From: Candidatus Caribbeanibacter nitroreducens
Lineage (GTDB): Bacteria > Gemmatimonadota > Gemmatimonadetes > Palauibacterales > Palauibacteraceae
NCBI GenBank assembly: GCA_947581645.1
Contig: CANPVF010000161.1
Span: 1 to 39,218 of the forward strand
Direction of reading: 5' to 3'
Length of the DNA: 39,218 bases
Made by a program: the position numbers and the translations under genes. Below are positions 70 to 38,408 of this stretch, piece after piece (the stretch's first letter is position 1; each line of letters opens with the position of its first letter). The notes below the pieces were generated by a model that was given only the letters and a program-made list of their open reading frames with translations, ran no database searches and was not told the origin of the DNA.

Positions 70-1065
70 TCAGACCCCGGGGGCGTCGAACGAGGCCCCG
101 GTCTCCAGCTCCGGATGGAGCACGAAGGGGCCCGCCGCCAGCGTCCGGCGGGTCACGGTGGCGATTCGAAGGATGAAGGAGAGCAGTACCGCGAAGGGGG
201 CGGCCGAGACCGCCACCGCCACGCTCACCGCCCACACCGGATTCGGCACGCCGACCGTACCCCCGCCCGCGAAGCCGCCGGGCTCGAAGTAGAGCAGCAT
301 CAGGACGGCCACCACCAGCGCCGGAAGCGCCAGGGCCAGGAGAGCCCGGGAGAGGTCGATCAGATCGCGCTGGAAGTAGAGCGTCTTGAAGTGCTCCCGG
401 ACGCTGCCGAAGAGGACCAGCCCGCGGACGATCTCGCCCACCTCGCTCCGTGCCTCCGCCGAGAGCTCCACGTCCGGATCGTGCAGGAGGCTCCGCCCCT
501 CCTGGATCTGGCGGGAGTAGTCGTAGTGGAGGGCGGCCCACAGCATGCCGAAGTCGCCGAAGCTCCGTCCGGAGAGGCTGTCCATGACGGCGGAGGCCCT
601 CTCCGACACCGAGCCGGCGTACTCGGCCGCGGGCGCTTCCCGCTCACCTGCGGAACCCGCGTTGGACGCCCGCCGGGCGGCCCGCTCCCCGATCTCGCCG
701 ATCCGCCCCACGAGCTCCCTGAGGAAGGCCGCCGGTTCCGCCGGGCTCACCCCCTCGCGACCGACGAACTCGTCGGCGTCCTCCCGGTAGTCCAGCGCCC
801 CCCGCAGGCGGTCCCTCTGGTCCGACAGCGATCCGAGCTCCTGGGAGAGGACGAGCTGGTTCACGGCCAGGACCAGCGTCACTCCGGTGATGATCGCTGT
901 GACCAGCGCCTGGAAGAGGGTCTCGACGGCGTCTCCTCCCACCAGGGGGTGGAGGTCCGGCCCGACCGCGGCCGACCCCACCAGGAGGAGAGCGGCCAGG
1001 ATCGCGCCGAGGAGGAGGCCGGCGACCGCCCACCGGTCCCCGGTGAGGAGGAGCCAGTCCTTCAG
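70..1065 (-). CDS. Uncharacterised multi-pass membrane protein
   Basis: The function is unknown. The product is 331 aa if translation begins at CTG 1065, or 303 aa from GTG 981. The CTG start is preferred: it lies 7 nt after the pruA stop, has GAGG five bases upstream, and adds a run (KDWLLLTGDRWAVAG, then a strongly hydrophobic stretch) that completes a first membrane helix which GTG 981 would cut in half. A second helix lies around ETLFQALVTAIITGVTLVLA, followed by a long soluble, charged central region, then two hydrophobic segments near the C-terminus and the motif RTLAAGPF. The NQLVLSQELG and RTLAAGPF segments recall uncharacterised haloarchaeal membrane proteins; this is from memory and not a search. 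It probably shares a transcript with pruA. Confidence 0.7.
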   Translation of the reverse strand: MKDWLLLTGDRWAVAGLLLGAILAALLLVGSAAVGPDLHPLVGGDAVETLFQALVTAIITGVTLVLAVNQLVLSQELGSLSDQRDRLRGALDYREDADEFVGREGVSPAEPAAFLRELVGRIGEIGERAARRASNAGSAGEREAPAAEYAGSVSERASAVMDSLSGRSFGDFGMLWAALHYDYSRQIQEGRSLLHDPDVELSAEARSEVGEIVRGLVLFGSVREHFKTLYFQRDLIDLSRALLALALPALVVAVLMLLYFEPGGFAGGGTVGVPNPVWAVSVAVAVSAAPFAVLLSFILRIATVTRRTLAAGPFVLHPELETGASFDAPGV

Positions 1066-1072
1066 GAGAACC

Positions 1073-2803
1073 TCACTTCTCGTCCATGAAGGGGTACTCG
1101 AAGCTGGTGGGCGGGTCCAGGTTCTCCTTCATGGCCCGCGGCGACACCCACCGGAGCAGGTTCAGCTGGCTCCCGGCCTTGTCGTTGGTGCCGCTGGCAC
1201 GGGCGCCGCCGAAGGGCTGCTGCCCCACCACGGCGCCGGTGGGCTTGTCGTTCACGTAGAAGTTGCCGGCGGCCTGCCGGAGCACCGCGGTCCCGGTGCG
1301 GATCGCCCCCCGGTCGCGGGCGAAGATGGCCCCGGTGAGACCGTAGGGGGAGGTCTCGTCGCAGAGATGGAGGGCCTCCTCCCAGTCGTCGTCCGGGTAG
1401 GTGTAGATGGTCACCACCGGCCCGAAGATCTCCTCCCGCATGAGGCGGTGCTTCGGGTCCTCCGTCACGACGACGGTGGGCTCGATGAACCACCCCTCCT
1501 CGTCCGAGTAGCCGCCTCCGGCGATGATCTCGGCATCCGGCGACTCGGCGGCGTGGTCGATGTAGCCGGTGATCTTCTCGTAGGCGTCCTCGTCGATGAC
1601 CGCGGTCATGAAGTTCCGGAAGTCCCGGGGGTCGCCCATCCGGATCTCGTCGATCATCTCCAGCATCCTCTCCCGGGTCTCCTCCCAGATTCCGTCCGGG
1701 ACGTAGCACCGGGCCACGGCGCTGCACTTCTGTCCCTGGTACTCGAAGGCGCCGCGGACGATGGCGGTGGACAGCGCGTCGGGATCGGCGCTCTCGTGGG
1801 CGACGATGAAGTCCTTCCCGCCGGTCTCCCCCACCACCCTCGGGTAGGTGTGGTAGGTGTCCAGGTTCTCGGACACCTGACGCCACAGGTGCCGGAAGGT
1901 GCCGGTGGAGCCCGTGAAGTGGATTCCCGCCAGGTGGGGGCTCGTCATGAGCGGCTCGCTCACCTTCTGCGGCGGTCCCGGAATGAAGTTGATCACGCCG
2001 TCGGGCATCCCGGCCTCCTCCAGGAGCCGCATGATGAAGTAGGAGGAGTAGACCGAGGTCGCCGCCGGCTTCCAGATCGAGACGTTGCCCATGAGGGCCG
2101 GCGCCGTGGGGAGGTTGCCGTTGATGGACGTGAAGTTGAAGGGCGTGATGGCGTAGACGAAGCCCTCCAGCGGCCGGTAGTCCATCCGGTTCCAGACGCC
2201 GTCGCCCGAGAAGGGCTGCCGCCCGTAGATCTCGGCAGCGTACTTCACGTTGAAGCGCCAGAAGTCGATGAGCTCGCAGGCGCTGTCGATCTCCGCCTGG
2301 TGCACGGTCTTGCTCTGGCCGAGCATGGTCGCGCCGTTCACCCTGGGGCGCCACTCGTCGGCGAGCAGGTCGGCGGCGCGCAGGAAGACCGCCGCCCGGT
2401 CCTCGAAGCTCCACGAGGCCCACTCCCGCTTCGCCTGCAGCGCGGCCTCGACGGCCCGCTCCGCCTCGTCGGCCCCGGCCCGGTGGCAGTGGGCCAGGAC
2501 GTGATCGGTGTCGTGGGGCATCACGACCTCGGAGGTGTCGCCGGTCCGGATCTCCTCCCCGCCGACGATCACCGGGATCTCGATCTCACGGTCGGCCAGG
2601 TCGTCGAGCTCCCTCTTCTGGCGCTTCCGCTCGCTGCTCCCGGGCGCGTAGTCCAGCACCGGCTCGTTGGCCGGCTCCGGCGGACGGAAGATCCCGTCGC
2701 CCGTGGACGGGCGCGTGCCGTCGCGGGCGGCCCCGCCGGAGGGGGCTCCGGCCGTCCGGGTCTCGGGCGTCGACTCCGTGGATTCGGTGGACACGGGCTC
2801 CAT
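1073..2803 (-). CDS. pruA: L-glutamate gamma-semialdehyde (1-pyrroline-5-carboxylate) dehydrogenase
   Basis: This NAD-dependent aldehyde dehydrogenase oxidises glutamate semialdehyde/P5C to glutamate, the second step of proline breakdown, in the cytoplasm. The 576-aa product has the stand-alone P5CDH hallmarks: the substrate-pocket stretch YAITPFNFTSINGNLP (about 217-232), nucleotide-site FTGSTGTF (about 296-303), general-base Glu326 in VGETGGKD and nucleophile Cys360 in GQKCSA. It resembles the eukaryote/Bacteroidota-type enzyme rather than a PutA domain. The ATG at 2803 follows a GGAAGG-rich Shine-Dalgarno. The reading frame stays open upstream to 3064 but has no family resemblance there. 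The first ~45 residues are a Ser/Thr/Glu/Pro-rich extension before the family's usual start near NEPVLDYAPGS. No proline dehydrogenase is in the window. Confidence 0.95.
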   Translation of the reverse strand: MEPVSTESTESTPETRTAGAPSGGAARDGTRPSTGDGIFRPPEPANEPVLDYAPGSSERKRQKRELDDLADREIEIPVIVGGEEIRTGDTSEVVMPHDTDHVLAHCHRAGADEAERAVEAALQAKREWASWSFEDRAAVFLRAADLLADEWRPRVNGATMLGQSKTVHQAEIDSACELIDFWRFNVKYAAEIYGRQPFSGDGVWNRMDYRPLEGFVYAITPFNFTSINGNLPTAPALMGNVSIWKPAATSVYSSYFIMRLLEEAGMPDGVINFIPGPPQKVSEPLMTSPHLAGIHFTGSTGTFRHLWRQVSENLDTYHTYPRVVGETGGKDFIVAHESADPDALSTAIVRGAFEYQGQKCSAVARCYVPDGIWEETRERMLEMIDEIRMGDPRDFRNFMTAVIDEDAYEKITGYIDHAAESPDAEIIAGGGYSDEEGWFIEPTVVVTEDPKHRLMREEIFGPVVTIYTYPDDDWEEALHLCDETSPYGLTGAIFARDRGAIRTGTAVLRQAAGNFYVNDKPTGAVVGQQPFGGARASGTNDKAGSQLNLLRWVSPRAMKENLDPPTSFEYPFMDEK

Positions 2804-34836: not shown

Positions 34837-36024
34837 TCAGAGCGTCTCCAGGAACTCGACCAGCTCCTCCTTCTCGGTCTGCGTGAGGCCCAGGTCGAGC
34901 TCCCGGTCGTAGTGCTCGACCACGTCCATCAGCGTCTCGGCGCTGCCGTCGTGGAAGTACGGCGGATGGTGGACGAGACCGCGCAGCGGGGTGGTGCGGT
35001 ACTTCCCCGTGATGCTTCGCTCCGCCAGCGTCGGGTCCATCCCCGTCTCCTCGGGATCGTGGAGGCGCTGGCCGGCGTCCGTGTAGGTCGGCGGCACGTG
35101 GCAGCTCGAGCACTCCGCCTTTCCGTCGAAGAGCGCTTCGCCGCGGGCAGCGGCGGCCGGGTCGATCACGCTGTCCGGCGGCGCCGGTGCGGTCAGGCTC
35201 AGCTGGTAGCGACGGAGGGCGGGCAGGCGCGGCTTCACCTTCTCCTCGTCGGCGTCGATGTCGATGCCGAGCGCCGGCTCCTCGAAGGAGCCCTGGCCGT
35301 GCATCTGGGTCACGGCCACGTACTCGTTCCAGTAGGAGATCGGCCCTTCACCGGTGTAGGTCTCCAGCTCCACGTCCTGGAGACCGTAGGCCGGGGGGAT
35401 CACGGCGGGATCGCTGATTCCGTCCTGGTTCCAGTAGGCGTCGTACCGGCCCGGGCCCCAGCTCCGGAGCGTTTCCTTCTGCTGCGGAGAGAGGGCCGGC
35501 GAGAGGGCGATGATGGCACCGACGTTCAGGTCCCGGTTGGGCCAGCCGTCGAGCCGCTGGCCCACCCCCTCCATGACCGAGTTGTCCACCGTGGAGTGGC
35601 AGAGGGCGCAGGTGACCCCCACCTCCGTCAGCCGGCCGGCGGAGTCCACGGACCCCTGGATGCCCACCACGGCGTCGCGTCGGATCAGCTCCACTGTCGT
35701 CGCCGGATCGTCCAGGTCCGCGCTGGACAGCAGGCCCTCCGGCAGCGCCGCGGCGTCCACCTTGAGCCCCACGGAGAGCGCCGTCTTCGGGTCCACGGAC
35801 GACTCGATGACCCGGTGCAGCTGCAGGGTGTCCGTCCAGTAGACCTCGTTGCCGAAAGTGGCATGGCGGAAGACATCCTGCCCGTCGAAGGAGGGCTCCG
35901 GGGGCTCGGGATCGGTGAACACCTCGCAGCCGGCCGCCGCCAACACCAGCACGCCGACGACGGCTGCCCGGAGGCAGGCGGGCCCGATCCCGGTTCGATC
36001 GAAAGCGGTCCTGTCACGGGTCAC
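34837..36024 (-). CDS. Dihaem cytochrome c, peroxidase/MauG-like, lipoprotein
   Basis: The product is 395 aa. GTG 36024 has a GGAAGGAG Shine-Dalgarno. The lipoprotein signal ends AAGC with Cys33, so the protein is anchored outside the cytoplasm. Two haem-binding motifs are present: CALCH (139-143) and CSSCH (305-309). The C-terminal stretch GKYRTTPLRGLVHHPPYFHD with GSAETLMDVVEHYD is typical of bacterial cytochrome c peroxidase/MauG proteins. The N-terminal half differs from classical CCP and has a longer spacing between haems. It would reduce peroxide or oxidise a substrate with electrons from a carrier, possibly the cupredoxin of the same unit. It is divergent from the SufR-like regulator. 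Confidence 0.88.
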   Translation of the reverse strand: MTRDRTAFDRTGIGPACLRAAVVGVLVLAAAGCEVFTDPEPPEPSFDGQDVFRHATFGNEVYWTDTLQLHRVIESSVDPKTALSVGLKVDAAALPEGLLSSADLDDPATTVELIRRDAVVGIQGSVDSAGRLTEVGVTCALCHSTVDNSVMEGVGQRLDGWPNRDLNVGAIIALSPALSPQQKETLRSWGPGRYDAYWNQDGISDPAVIPPAYGLQDVELETYTGEGPISYWNEYVAVTQMHGQGSFEEPALGIDIDADEEKVKPRLPALRRYQLSLTAPAPPDSVIDPAAAARGEALFDGKAECSSCHVPPTYTDAGQRLHDPEETGMDPTLAERSITGKYRTTPLRGLVHHPPYFHDGSAETLMDVVEHYDRELDLGLTQTEKEELVEFLETL

Positions 36025-36116
36025 GGTCTCGACTCCTTCCGATTTCTGTGCGTCCCCCGGCGCGCCGGGACGACGGCCCGGGGCGGACGACGGATTACAC
36101 ATATTAACTAATTTGT

Positions 36117-36209
36117 TACTTCACTTATCGCCGGCTCGTACGCCGCCGTCGCCGGGGCTTCTCCCCGGCGCGGGAAGACAGTAAGGAGGGTCAGTCAGTA
36201 AGTCAAGTA
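36117..36209. promoter_or_regulatory. Divergent control region with an inverted pair of 11-bp words
   Basis: TAAGTGAAGTA on the minus strand (36127-36117) and TAAGTCAAGTA on the plus strand (36199-36209) match at 10 of 11 positions and point in opposite directions. Both are followed by an AGTTA-containing AT-rich stretch. They lie about 93 and 100 bp from the two divergent starts, in DNA far richer in AT than the surroundings. They are good candidates for operators of the adjacent SufR-like regulator. Confidence 0.55.
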
Positions 36210-36308
36210 GTTAGTTGCTTTAGTGGACAAACCGGGCAGGGCCGGGTATCTTGCGGGCGACGTCGAAGCCGAGTCGCCGCACCCGAATTTCACCGGAGGA
36301 CCGCAGCC

Positions 36309-36935
36309 GTTTCCCCGCTGGAGACCAGACAGAGGATCCTGACCGAGCTCCGCCGGGACGGGCACACCGTTCGGGATCTCGCGGAGAAGCTCGGCGTCAC
36401 GAGCAACGCGGTCCGGGACCACGTCGACGTCCTGCGGGAGCGTGGACTCGTCGAGGCCACCGGCCTGCAGCGGGGCACCGGGGGAAAGCCCGCCCGCATC
36501 TACGAGCTCACGGCGGCGGGCGAGGACTCCTTCGGGGCCGCCTACCTGGACGTGCTCCGCTCCATCGTGGAGAGCCTGGAGCGTTCCGTGGACGAGGAAG
36601 ATGTCCACCGCGTCCTGGACGACGCCGGCCGGCGGCTCGGGAGCGAGCTCGCGCCGGCCCGGAACGGCTTCGAGCGCCGGGTGCGGAAGGCCGTCGCCGT
36701 GCTCAACGACATGGGGGGCATGGCCGAGGCCGACTTCTCCGGCGAGGGGGCCACGATTAGGAGCGCCGGCTGTCCCCTCTCCGCCCTCGTGCGGGACCAT
36801 CCCGGCGCCTGCCGCCTGGCCGAGGCTCTGATCGGCGAGATCACGGGCCGCCCGGTCCGGGAGGAGTGCGAGCACGGGGCGAGACCGAGCTGTCGCTTCT
36901 CGATCCCCCGTCCCGAGGACGCGATGAGCGGCTGA
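36309..36935 (+). CDS. SufR-like winged-helix regulator with Cys-rich Fe-S site; non-canonical start
   Basis: The frame encodes a winged helix-turn-helix (LTELRRDGHTVRDLAEKLGV, then TSNAVRDHVDVLRERGLVEA and a GKPARIYELT wing) followed by a helical linker and a Cys cluster. With numbering from 36309, the cysteines are 155, 168, 187 and 195: C-x12-C, then 26 residues to the last. This is close to the C-x12-C-x27-C of the [4Fe-4S] repressor SufR. No ATG, GTG or TTG is in frame before GTG 36552, which would remove the whole DNA-binding domain. A strong GGAGGA (36295-36300) points to GTT 36309, or less well CTG 36318, as the start. It probably controls the divergent cytochrome unit. Redox or Fe-S sensing is inferred. 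Confidence 0.75.
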   Translation, partial: VSPLETRQRILTELRRDGHTVRDLAEKLGVTSNAVRDHVDVLRERGLVEATGLQRGTGGKPARIYELTAAGEDSFGAAYLDVLRSIVESLERSVDEEDVHRVLDDAGRRLGSELAPARNGFERRVRKAVAVLNDMGGMAEADFSGEGATIRSAGCPLSALVRDHPGACRLAEALIGEITGRPVREECEHGARPSCRFSIPRPEDAMSG

Positions 36936-36964
36936 CCCGGGCCGGTCCACGACCCGGACGACCC

Positions 36965-36991
36965 GGACGCCGCCGGAAACCGGCGCCGTCC
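36965..36991. terminator. Hairpin between convergent regulator and propeller genes
   Basis: GGACGCCGCCGG (36965-36976) and CCGGCGCCGTCC (36980-36991) form a 12-bp stem with one mismatch and a 3-base loop, placed in the 69-bp gap between two convergent stops. It could serve both genes. Confidence 0.55.
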
Positions 36992-37004
36992 GTCCGATCC
37001 GGCC

Positions 37005-38408
37005 TCAGTTCCCCCCGGAGGCCGCCGGCCCGGTCTCCCACTTCTGGGCGCTCGAGACGTCGGGCACGCCCCAGTCGTCCCCGTCCCACCCCTGGAAGCC
37101 CTCCATGCGGAAGGCCCAGAAGCCGGTGACCATGTCGCTGATCACGATCAGGCCGTCCTCGTTCCGCACGTCCACGCCGAACGCGCCGTTGCAGACCCGA
37201 TCGCCGCATCCCCCGGTCTTGTGGGGGCCCAGGTAGGTGTCGTACCAGGCCACGGTCTTGGGATGCTCCGGATCCTCCATCGAGAAGACCTGGAGGCCGT
37301 CCTCGTAGCCCGAGACGAAGACCAGGGGCCACCGCACCTCGTGGTTGTGCGCCAGGTTGCGCCAGTTCGCCGTCCACGCCGAGATGGGCGAGCTGATGTT
37401 CTCGACCTCGCCGTCCAGCGCGGGCTGCATGTCGAAGATCCGGAGCGGGGCGTACTGGTACTCCGTCTCGGCCACGGCGTAGCGGCCGTTGGGACCCGGC
37501 GTGAAGGTGTGGCCGCCCCGCACGCCGCTGATGCCCGTCAGGCTGACCAGCTGCTCGGGCTGCTGGAGATCCGTAATGTCGTAGACGTAGTACCCGCCGG
37601 TTCCCCCGCCGTAGAAGCGATCCGTGCCGCTCGGCGGGTGATAGCCGACATAGAAGTCGTGGTAGCCGCGGAAGGCCCCCTGCTCCTCCGCACCGGGCAC
37701 GGGCACCTGCGCGACGAGGGCGTTCTCCACGTCCCCCTCCACCGCGCGGCCCAGGTCGTAGACGTTGGCGTACGGGCCCGACACGGTGGCGAACAGGTAG
37801 ACGCGGCCGTTCGAGTGCTTGTAGACGAAGATGTTGTGGAACCCGCCGGGCGTCTCCGGCGCCCGGATCCGCGCCGCCTCCTCCACGCCGGAGGTGTCCG
37901 GGAGCGAGGTCACGTCCAGGAGCACGGCCCCCAGGTCGTGGTTCGGGCCGCCCTGTCCGAACTGGAGGGACTGGACCACGTAGTAGCGGCCGTCCCACCT
38001 GAAGTACTTGACGTCCATCCCGCCGGTCCGGTCGTGGAGCTCCTGGTTCTCGATGCGCCAGCGGTAGATGACCTCGGCGTTCTCCGGGTCGGCGACGCTG
38101 ACGATGTCCGTGCCCTTCTGTCCCTGCTCCCCGTACTGCATCCGGGCCACGTAGGCGAAGGGCCGACCGACCTCCTGCTCCAGCTCGATGTCGGCGATGC
38201 TGAGGCGGGCCCCCAGGGGAACGTGGGACAGCACCTCGATGTTCTCGCTCCCCCGGGGCTCCAGGGCCTGATCCCCGTGGCCCTGGGCCGCGGCGGGGGC
38301 GCTTCCCAGCGCCAGGAACGCCAGGACCGCCCCGATGGTGGTCATCCATCGCGTCGGGGACAGCGCTTCGGAATCAGGGGCGGACCGTGTCGTCGGGGAA
38401 CGCCTCAT
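37005..38408 (-). CDS. Secreted LVIVD-type beta-propeller protein
   Basis: This 467-aa protein has a signal peptide with its hydrophobic core around TTIGAVLAFLALGSAPAAAQ. The mature part has repeated strand blocks of the LVIVD kind: FAYVARMQYGEQGQKGTDIV, YYVYDITDLQQPEQLVSLTG, PLVFVSGYEDGLQVFSMEDP and DGLIVISDMVTGFWAFRMEG. These would form a beta-propeller on the outside of the cell. His residues in LHDRTGGMDVKYF, GGFHN and AHNHEVRWP might bind metal, and Cys in GGCGDRVCNGAF could form a disulfide. The biochemical role is not known. ATG 38408 has GAAGGAAG upstream. A 16-bp tandem repeat lies in the leader. Confidence 0.85.
   Translation of the reverse strand: MRRSPTTRSAPDSEALSPTRWMTTIGAVLAFLALGSAPAAAQGHGDQALEPRGSENIEVLSHVPLGARLSIADIELEQEVGRPFAYVARMQYGEQGQKGTDIVSVADPENAEVIYRWRIENQELHDRTGGMDVKYFRWDGRYYVVQSLQFGQGGPNHDLGAVLLDVTSLPDTSGVEEAARIRAPETPGGFHNIFVYKHSNGRVYLFATVSGPYANVYDLGRAVEGDVENALVAQVPVPGAEEQGAFRGYHDFYVGYHPPSGTDRFYGGGTGGYYVYDITDLQQPEQLVSLTGISGVRGGHTFTPGPNGRYAVAETEYQYAPLRIFDMQPALDGEVENISSPISAWTANWRNLAHNHEVRWPLVFVSGYEDGLQVFSMEDPEHPKTVAWYDTYLGPHKTGGCGDRVCNGAFGVDVRNEDGLIVISDMVTGFWAFRMEGFQGWDGDDWGVPDVSSAQKWETGPAASGGN

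Follow-up and report, generated by a model that had tools for sequence, protein, structure and literature searches.

A SufR-like regulator gene of Candidatus Caribbeanibacter nitroreducens with no standard start codon ahead of its DNA-binding domain, and GTT as its candidate initiation codon

Where does a protein begin if its DNA-binding domain is encoded ahead of every standard start codon of its reading frame? This question is raised by a regulator gene in a stretch of 39,218 nucleotides (the window) from the Gemmatimonadota bacterium Candidatus Caribbeanibacter nitroreducens. The open frame on the forward strand extends from 36108 to 36935, with an upstream TAA stop at 36105-36107, and the sequence bears out the original prediction that it contains no ATG, GTG or TTG before GTG 36552, which lies 81 codons past GTT 36309. 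Gene callers accept only ATG, GTG and TTG and therefore miss non-canonical starts, which are rarely documented in bacteria. A gene caller would thus annotate this regulator without its DNA-binding domain, and the ORF listing indeed reports, as had been anticipated, a 127-aa product from GTG 36552 that has no HTH match. The complete winged helix-turn-helix (wHTH) said to be encoded ahead of this codon is recovered as a Pfam HTH_20 match (E 8.4e-11; 42.1 bits, cut-off 27). The conserved beginning of the coding sequence accordingly contains no standard start codon (Table 1).

The regulator frame is not a chance ORF. Its coding score ahead of the first standard start amounts to 29.3, by far the highest among 301 coding ORFs not open at their 5' end across 498 kb of sequence (the window and 40 further stretches of the same genome); the next ORF, a selenoprotein, reaches 13.6, and the 99th percentile is 10.6. 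Under a codon-usage model that was trained on this genome, the cumulative score in the regulator frame drops to a minimum at 36315 and climbs thereafter, which places the onset of the coding signal at about 36309-36318. An AF2 model of the protein started at GTT 36309 has a mean pLDDT of 91.5, a first helix formed by residues 3-16 and an intact wHTH. The start of the protein must lie ahead of the HTH.

Table 1. Features of the regulator locus and its divergent neighbour (window coordinates; residues counted from GTT 36309)
Feature	Position	Strand	Remarks
Divergent neighbour, putative di-haem c-type lipoprotein	34837..36024	-	two CXXCH in translation
TAAC-N6-GTTA inverted repeat, candidate SufR-type operator	36105..36118	+	between the divergent genes
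TGGACA, -35-like hexamer	36224..36229	+	equivalents upstream of many orthologues
TATCTT, -10-like hexamer	36247..36252	+	17-nt spacer; overlaps TTG 36251
GGAGGA, Shine-Dalgarno-like	36295..36300	+	
SufR-like wHTH regulator, 208 aa from GTT	36309..36935	+	stop 36933-36935; alignment with 99 relatives shows conserved wHTH and C-terminal domain
GTT, most probable start of translation	36309..36311	+	codon-usage onset; GGAGGA 8 nt before; complete helix 1
wHTH core, residues 5-49	36321..36455	+	HTH_20 match; model
GTG, first in-frame standard start, inside the gene	36552..36554	+	use would delete the HTH
Four conserved Cys codons	36771..36893	+	C155 36771, C168 36810, C187 36867, C195 36891

An Fe-S-type regulator had been proposed, and the protein fits this description as a SufR-like regulator with four conserved C-terminal cysteines: C155 is kept in 100, C168 in 99, C187 in 98 and C195 in 99 of 100 sequences. 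To judge from these cysteines and from the family, it may bind an Fe-S cluster, and its putative DNA target is deduced in the same way. The NCBIfam SufR model (TIGR02702) gives the best score of the library for the regulator (E 1.8e-12), but its 47.4 bits are far below the equivalog cut-off of 178.8 of this cyanobacterial model, and suf families are absent among the five neighbouring genes scanned at the locus as well as among ten neighbours scanned in seven relative loci; we therefore name it SufR-like rather than SufR. The structure of the C-terminal domain (residues ~70-200) resembles the BcsD/CesD and the TRAPP (Bet3-type) fold, and there is a weak resemblance to BcsD in sequence as well, a likeness that may point to the fold of the sensor domain in SufR-like regulators.

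No genome of the same genus was found among the 60 relatives searched. Class-wide, 85 of 394 genomes contain a match at E 1e-20 or better, with a best identity of ~46%, and the closest relatives found are just ~40-46% identical to the regulator. A scan of public genome contigs with alignment A2 retrieved 66 loci with named records, mostly from Gemmatimonadota MAGs, and in a contig scan with the single protein 179 stretches matched the pattern, none of which encoded a relative. A DNA search of family set f1 with positions 34837-36952 returned short matches only and did not turn up the promoter-start region a second time, and the plasmid collection returned no match.

These relatives possess ordinary starts. 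A standard start lies at most 40 codons upstream of query residue 5 in 98 of 99 relatives at loci registered by tblastn, and at -7 to -17, mostly at -12 and -10, in 97 of them; all 99 loci were re-registered for these counts, the contigs of L034 and L038 being clipped, and loci that represent the same place fetched twice (e.g. L009/L119) are counted unmerged. A start at the equivalent of 36552, which the original prediction had suggested looking for in orthologues, is supported by none of the 98 relatives with a standard start. Relatives begin ~8 codons further upstream (typically at -10 to -12, against -4 for GTT 36309), the distant ones with ATG, GTG or TTG, and the present protein is ~6-8 residues shorter than theirs at the N-terminus; at their low identity the idea of a former GTG receives orthologue support in neither direction. 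The N-terminal segment of the family (W..RFL, at -7 to -2) has no recognisable counterpart upstream of GTT in any frame. The only relative without a start, L085, repeats the regulator gene of L084 within one and the same MAG, with a T run that is shorter by one T and an upstream sequence that is unrelated. L085 is probably an assembly artefact of a public MAG, and it serves as a warning that MAG errors can mimic a startless gene.

The region 36050-37050 contains a single sigma-70-like site, TGGACA-N17-TATCTT (36224-36252), upstream of GTT, and none occurred in shuffles (mean 0.0, n=50). GTG 36223 and TTG 36251 are nearby standard starts in the other two frames, and the promoter-like hexamers sit on both of them, which argues against either as a start. 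Many relatives possess the same kind of promoter-like site 5 to ~60 nt before their start: at a loose threshold, 61 of 92 distinct upstream regions (from 102 loci, query included) contain a match and 31 do not. The message likely has a leader of ~50 nt with GGAGGA near its end, and folding of the RNA at 36259-36345 revealed no unusual structure (z 0.63). In the subgroup L101, L102, L103, L117, L118 and L120, a TAGACA-N17-TATnnT site ends 5 nt before the start codon, an arrangement that suggests leaderless messages there. A perfect eight-base Shine-Dalgarno (SD) word, TAAGGAGG, is also found at 36182-36189, with no start codon behind it; the AT-rich sequence around it, which lies upstream of the promoter, contains short direct repeats.

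The original prediction put a GGAGGA nine bases before GTT 36309; the hexamer is present, with 8 bases between it and GTT, and the difference of one base comes from the way of counting. Its SD core is only GGAGG, at an aligned spacing of 9 from GTT, whereas the genome peaks at 4-7. A GGAGG is expected by chance within a 7-position range at ~3.2% of sites in this genome, in which SD matches are only mildly enriched over in-gene controls; as codons just one step removed from a standard start occur frequently, a GTT beside an SD is weak evidence alone. Together with the onset of the coding signal and the completeness of helix 1, we nevertheless consider it fairly probable that the protein starts at 36309, and infer that ribosomes initiate at this GTT, the evidence coming from one MAG locus and a query chosen for being odd. 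That the cell's DNA truly reads GTT at this place, and that GTT is used, is a joint claim that we hold tentatively and at less than even confidence.

The same start site would be used if the cell possessed an ordinary GTG and the T were an error of sequencing, of assembly or of a minor-strain consensus, an explanation that we regard as rather unlikely. The genome is a MAG-like assembly of 199 contigs, and the sole other startless relative among the 99 looks like an artefact, both of which speak for such an error. Errors, however, should hit stops ~16 times as often as starts, since an in-gene stop is a 15.8 times likelier outcome of a random base change than the loss of a start, and no nonsense change was recognised in 313 genes. 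The 28 stops flagged, judged by eye on whether a start followed close behind the stop or the other strand was the stronger coding one, included no convincing case apart from UGA at selenocysteine-like sites; the detector flagged 63% of mock stops. Among these sites, selD (L158:10602-11642 (-)) has an in-frame UGA before Ala-Cys-Lys, and SelA is present as well, so that the product is likely a selenocysteine-containing SelD; in-frame UGA at Cys-like positions in L079:978-1160 (-) and L073:41-223 (-), in PrdB-like and SelL/peroxiredoxin-like stretches, likely marks further selenoproteins.

A base error is also opposed by two other startless genes in this genome, although the numbers are small and one of the two is an orphan. 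A TerC-like gene (Pfam TerC; L069:14071-15009 (-), which is C128:34071-35009 (-) of this genome) reads GGAGG-CAGCC-ATC, and its first standard start comes only 7 residues after the reference Trp, while all six relatives fetched have one before this Trp; its ATC is a candidate start. The orphan, a membrane-protein frame at 70-1128 (-) of the window with no homologue in the 60 relative genomes searched (its own excluded), carries a coding signal from GAGG-TTCTC-CTG-AAG onwards, well before its first standard start, and appears to begin with CTG behind GAGG. The infC gene of this genome reads AGGAGGTAGCAGG-ATT, but it is not a clean control because an in-frame ATG lies 7 codons before the ATT. 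Taken as support rather than proof, and on small numbers, these same-genome controls favour a real odd start over a base error.

Alternatively, an indel of a single base within the C run at 36313-36316 could have separated the frame 36242+3k (...SPEDRSRFP) from LETRQ. Joined, the two yield RFPLETR, which resembles the RFFxSTR of the family, with R and F at -4 and -3 as the commonest residues there and a length that fits relatives starting at -11/-12. Even so, we find this improbable: the profile score of the joined terminus is no better than chance (p 0.38 for the single frame, 0.85 for the best of frames), and the only standard start that this frame has nearby, TTG 36251, lies inside the -10 box, so that an odd start would still be needed. 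The N-terminus profile was built from 86 hand-listed loci, reduced to 74 distinct N-termini, with L085, L010, L107, L148 and L149 among the loci left out. A frameshift before residue 5, whether by skipping or by repeating a single base, was rejected on the same profile, as the R-F likeness noted by eye failed this test.

It is also conceivable that the start was lost by mutation and that the gene is untranslated or decaying. The missing family N-terminal segment and the non-standard start would agree with decay; on the other hand, the remaining frame is intact, with its four cysteines and the wHTH, and both promoter-like and SD-like sites are present, which leaves this explanation little probability.

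Initiation at CTG 36318, read as fMet and giving METRQRIL, had been proposed beside GTT. The minimum of the codon score at 36315 lies close to this codon, and among the non-standard starts of E. coli, CTG is stronger than GTT. The GGAGG core, however, lies 18 nt ahead of CTG 36318, for which the range scanned shows no SD match, so that of the two codons proposed GTT stands as the best-placed candidate and CTG is hardly likely. Translation from GTG 36552 into a 127-aa protein without HTH, although this is the first standard start and the one a gene caller would report, is very improbable, with no SD within range, a standard start upstream of the HTH in nearly all relatives and a coding signal that reaches 81 codons further upstream.

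Under initiation at GTT 36309, the gene would be complete: it would encode a SufR-like transcription regulator of 208 aa with the four cysteines, be transcribed from TGGACA-N17-TATCTT with the short leader described above and be translated from GTT, read as fMet, behind GGAGGA. By analogy with sigR of Streptomyces, the third-position mismatch would make initiation weak and IF3-sensitive and would hold the regulator at a low level. It is a more doubtful extension of this analogy that the lineage uses third-position-mismatched starts (GTT, the ATC of the TerC-like gene, the ATT of infC) as a throttle on selected genes, with the level or activity of IF3 setting that of the Fe-S regulator; if so, such regulators would be annotated without their DNA-binding domain by standard gene calling. 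Should the GTT be confirmed, a GTY start would be documented for a second redox/Fe-S-type regulator, from a phylum other than that of Streptomyces, and this would suggest that IF3-throttled regulators are more widespread. If the GTT is an error, the locus shows how one base can hide a domain in a MAG.

The gene is divergently arranged with that of the di-haem lipoprotein, which has a GTG start behind AAGGAG with an 8-nt spacer and no Pfam match at 1e-3. The inverted repeat between the two genes, a possible operator of the SufR type, is the only match of TAAC-N6-GTTA in the window (0.13 expected, for a pattern picked after seeing the sequence). In the simplest picture, the regulator would sense the Fe-S or redox state and act on the divergent pair.

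Among known regulators, cyanobacterial SufR and Rv1460 of M. tuberculosis share with this protein an N-terminal wHTH and C-terminal cysteines. Three of its cysteines, which all or all but one of 100 sequences retain, show the C-X12-C-X~27-C spacing, C155-X12-C168-X26-C195 standing against C203-X12-C216-X27-C244 in Rv1460, as compared by eye from the residue numbers in the available part of PMC6034842. According to the same part of that source, the three cysteines of Rv1460 are needed for function and the protein binds an Fe-S cluster (PMC6034842). A score above the SufR equivalog cut-off and a linkage to suf genes among the neighbours scanned are both lacking here, and C187 is a fourth conserved cysteine, unlike in SufR.

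Among known odd starts, that of infC, which encodes IF3 and begins with ATT or ATC, is well studied, and IF3 autoregulates the gene. As with GTT 36309, this start follows an SD and mismatches the initiator anticodon at its third position; the autoregulation by IF3 sets it apart from the regulator as known here from its sequence. The nearest documented case is sigR of Streptomyces, which, in the part of PMC5472188 available, starts with GTC and, in S. griseoflavus and S. griseorubens out of 34 species, with GTT, the GTT start of these two being rated as probable; IF3 represses its translation, and levels of the regulator stay low (PMC5472188). No bacterial report of a GTT start besides sigR was recognised among the matches listed, and the available portion of PMC11497404 contains no mention of GUU. 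As far as that portion of the sigR study goes, the two genes have much in common, namely a redox or stress regulator, a GTY start, a ribosome-binding site ahead of it and a beginning of the gene that lacks a standard start. They differ in that sigR has a long ribosome-binding site, AGGAGGTG, and the regulator a GGAGG core, and in that the study of sigR compared the codon among 34 Streptomyces genomes and probed it by mutation and with IF3, as against one MAG sequence here. If its GTT is real, the regulator would by analogy work as sigR does, and it is likely, if unproven, that its gene joins this documented kind of non-canonical-start genes.
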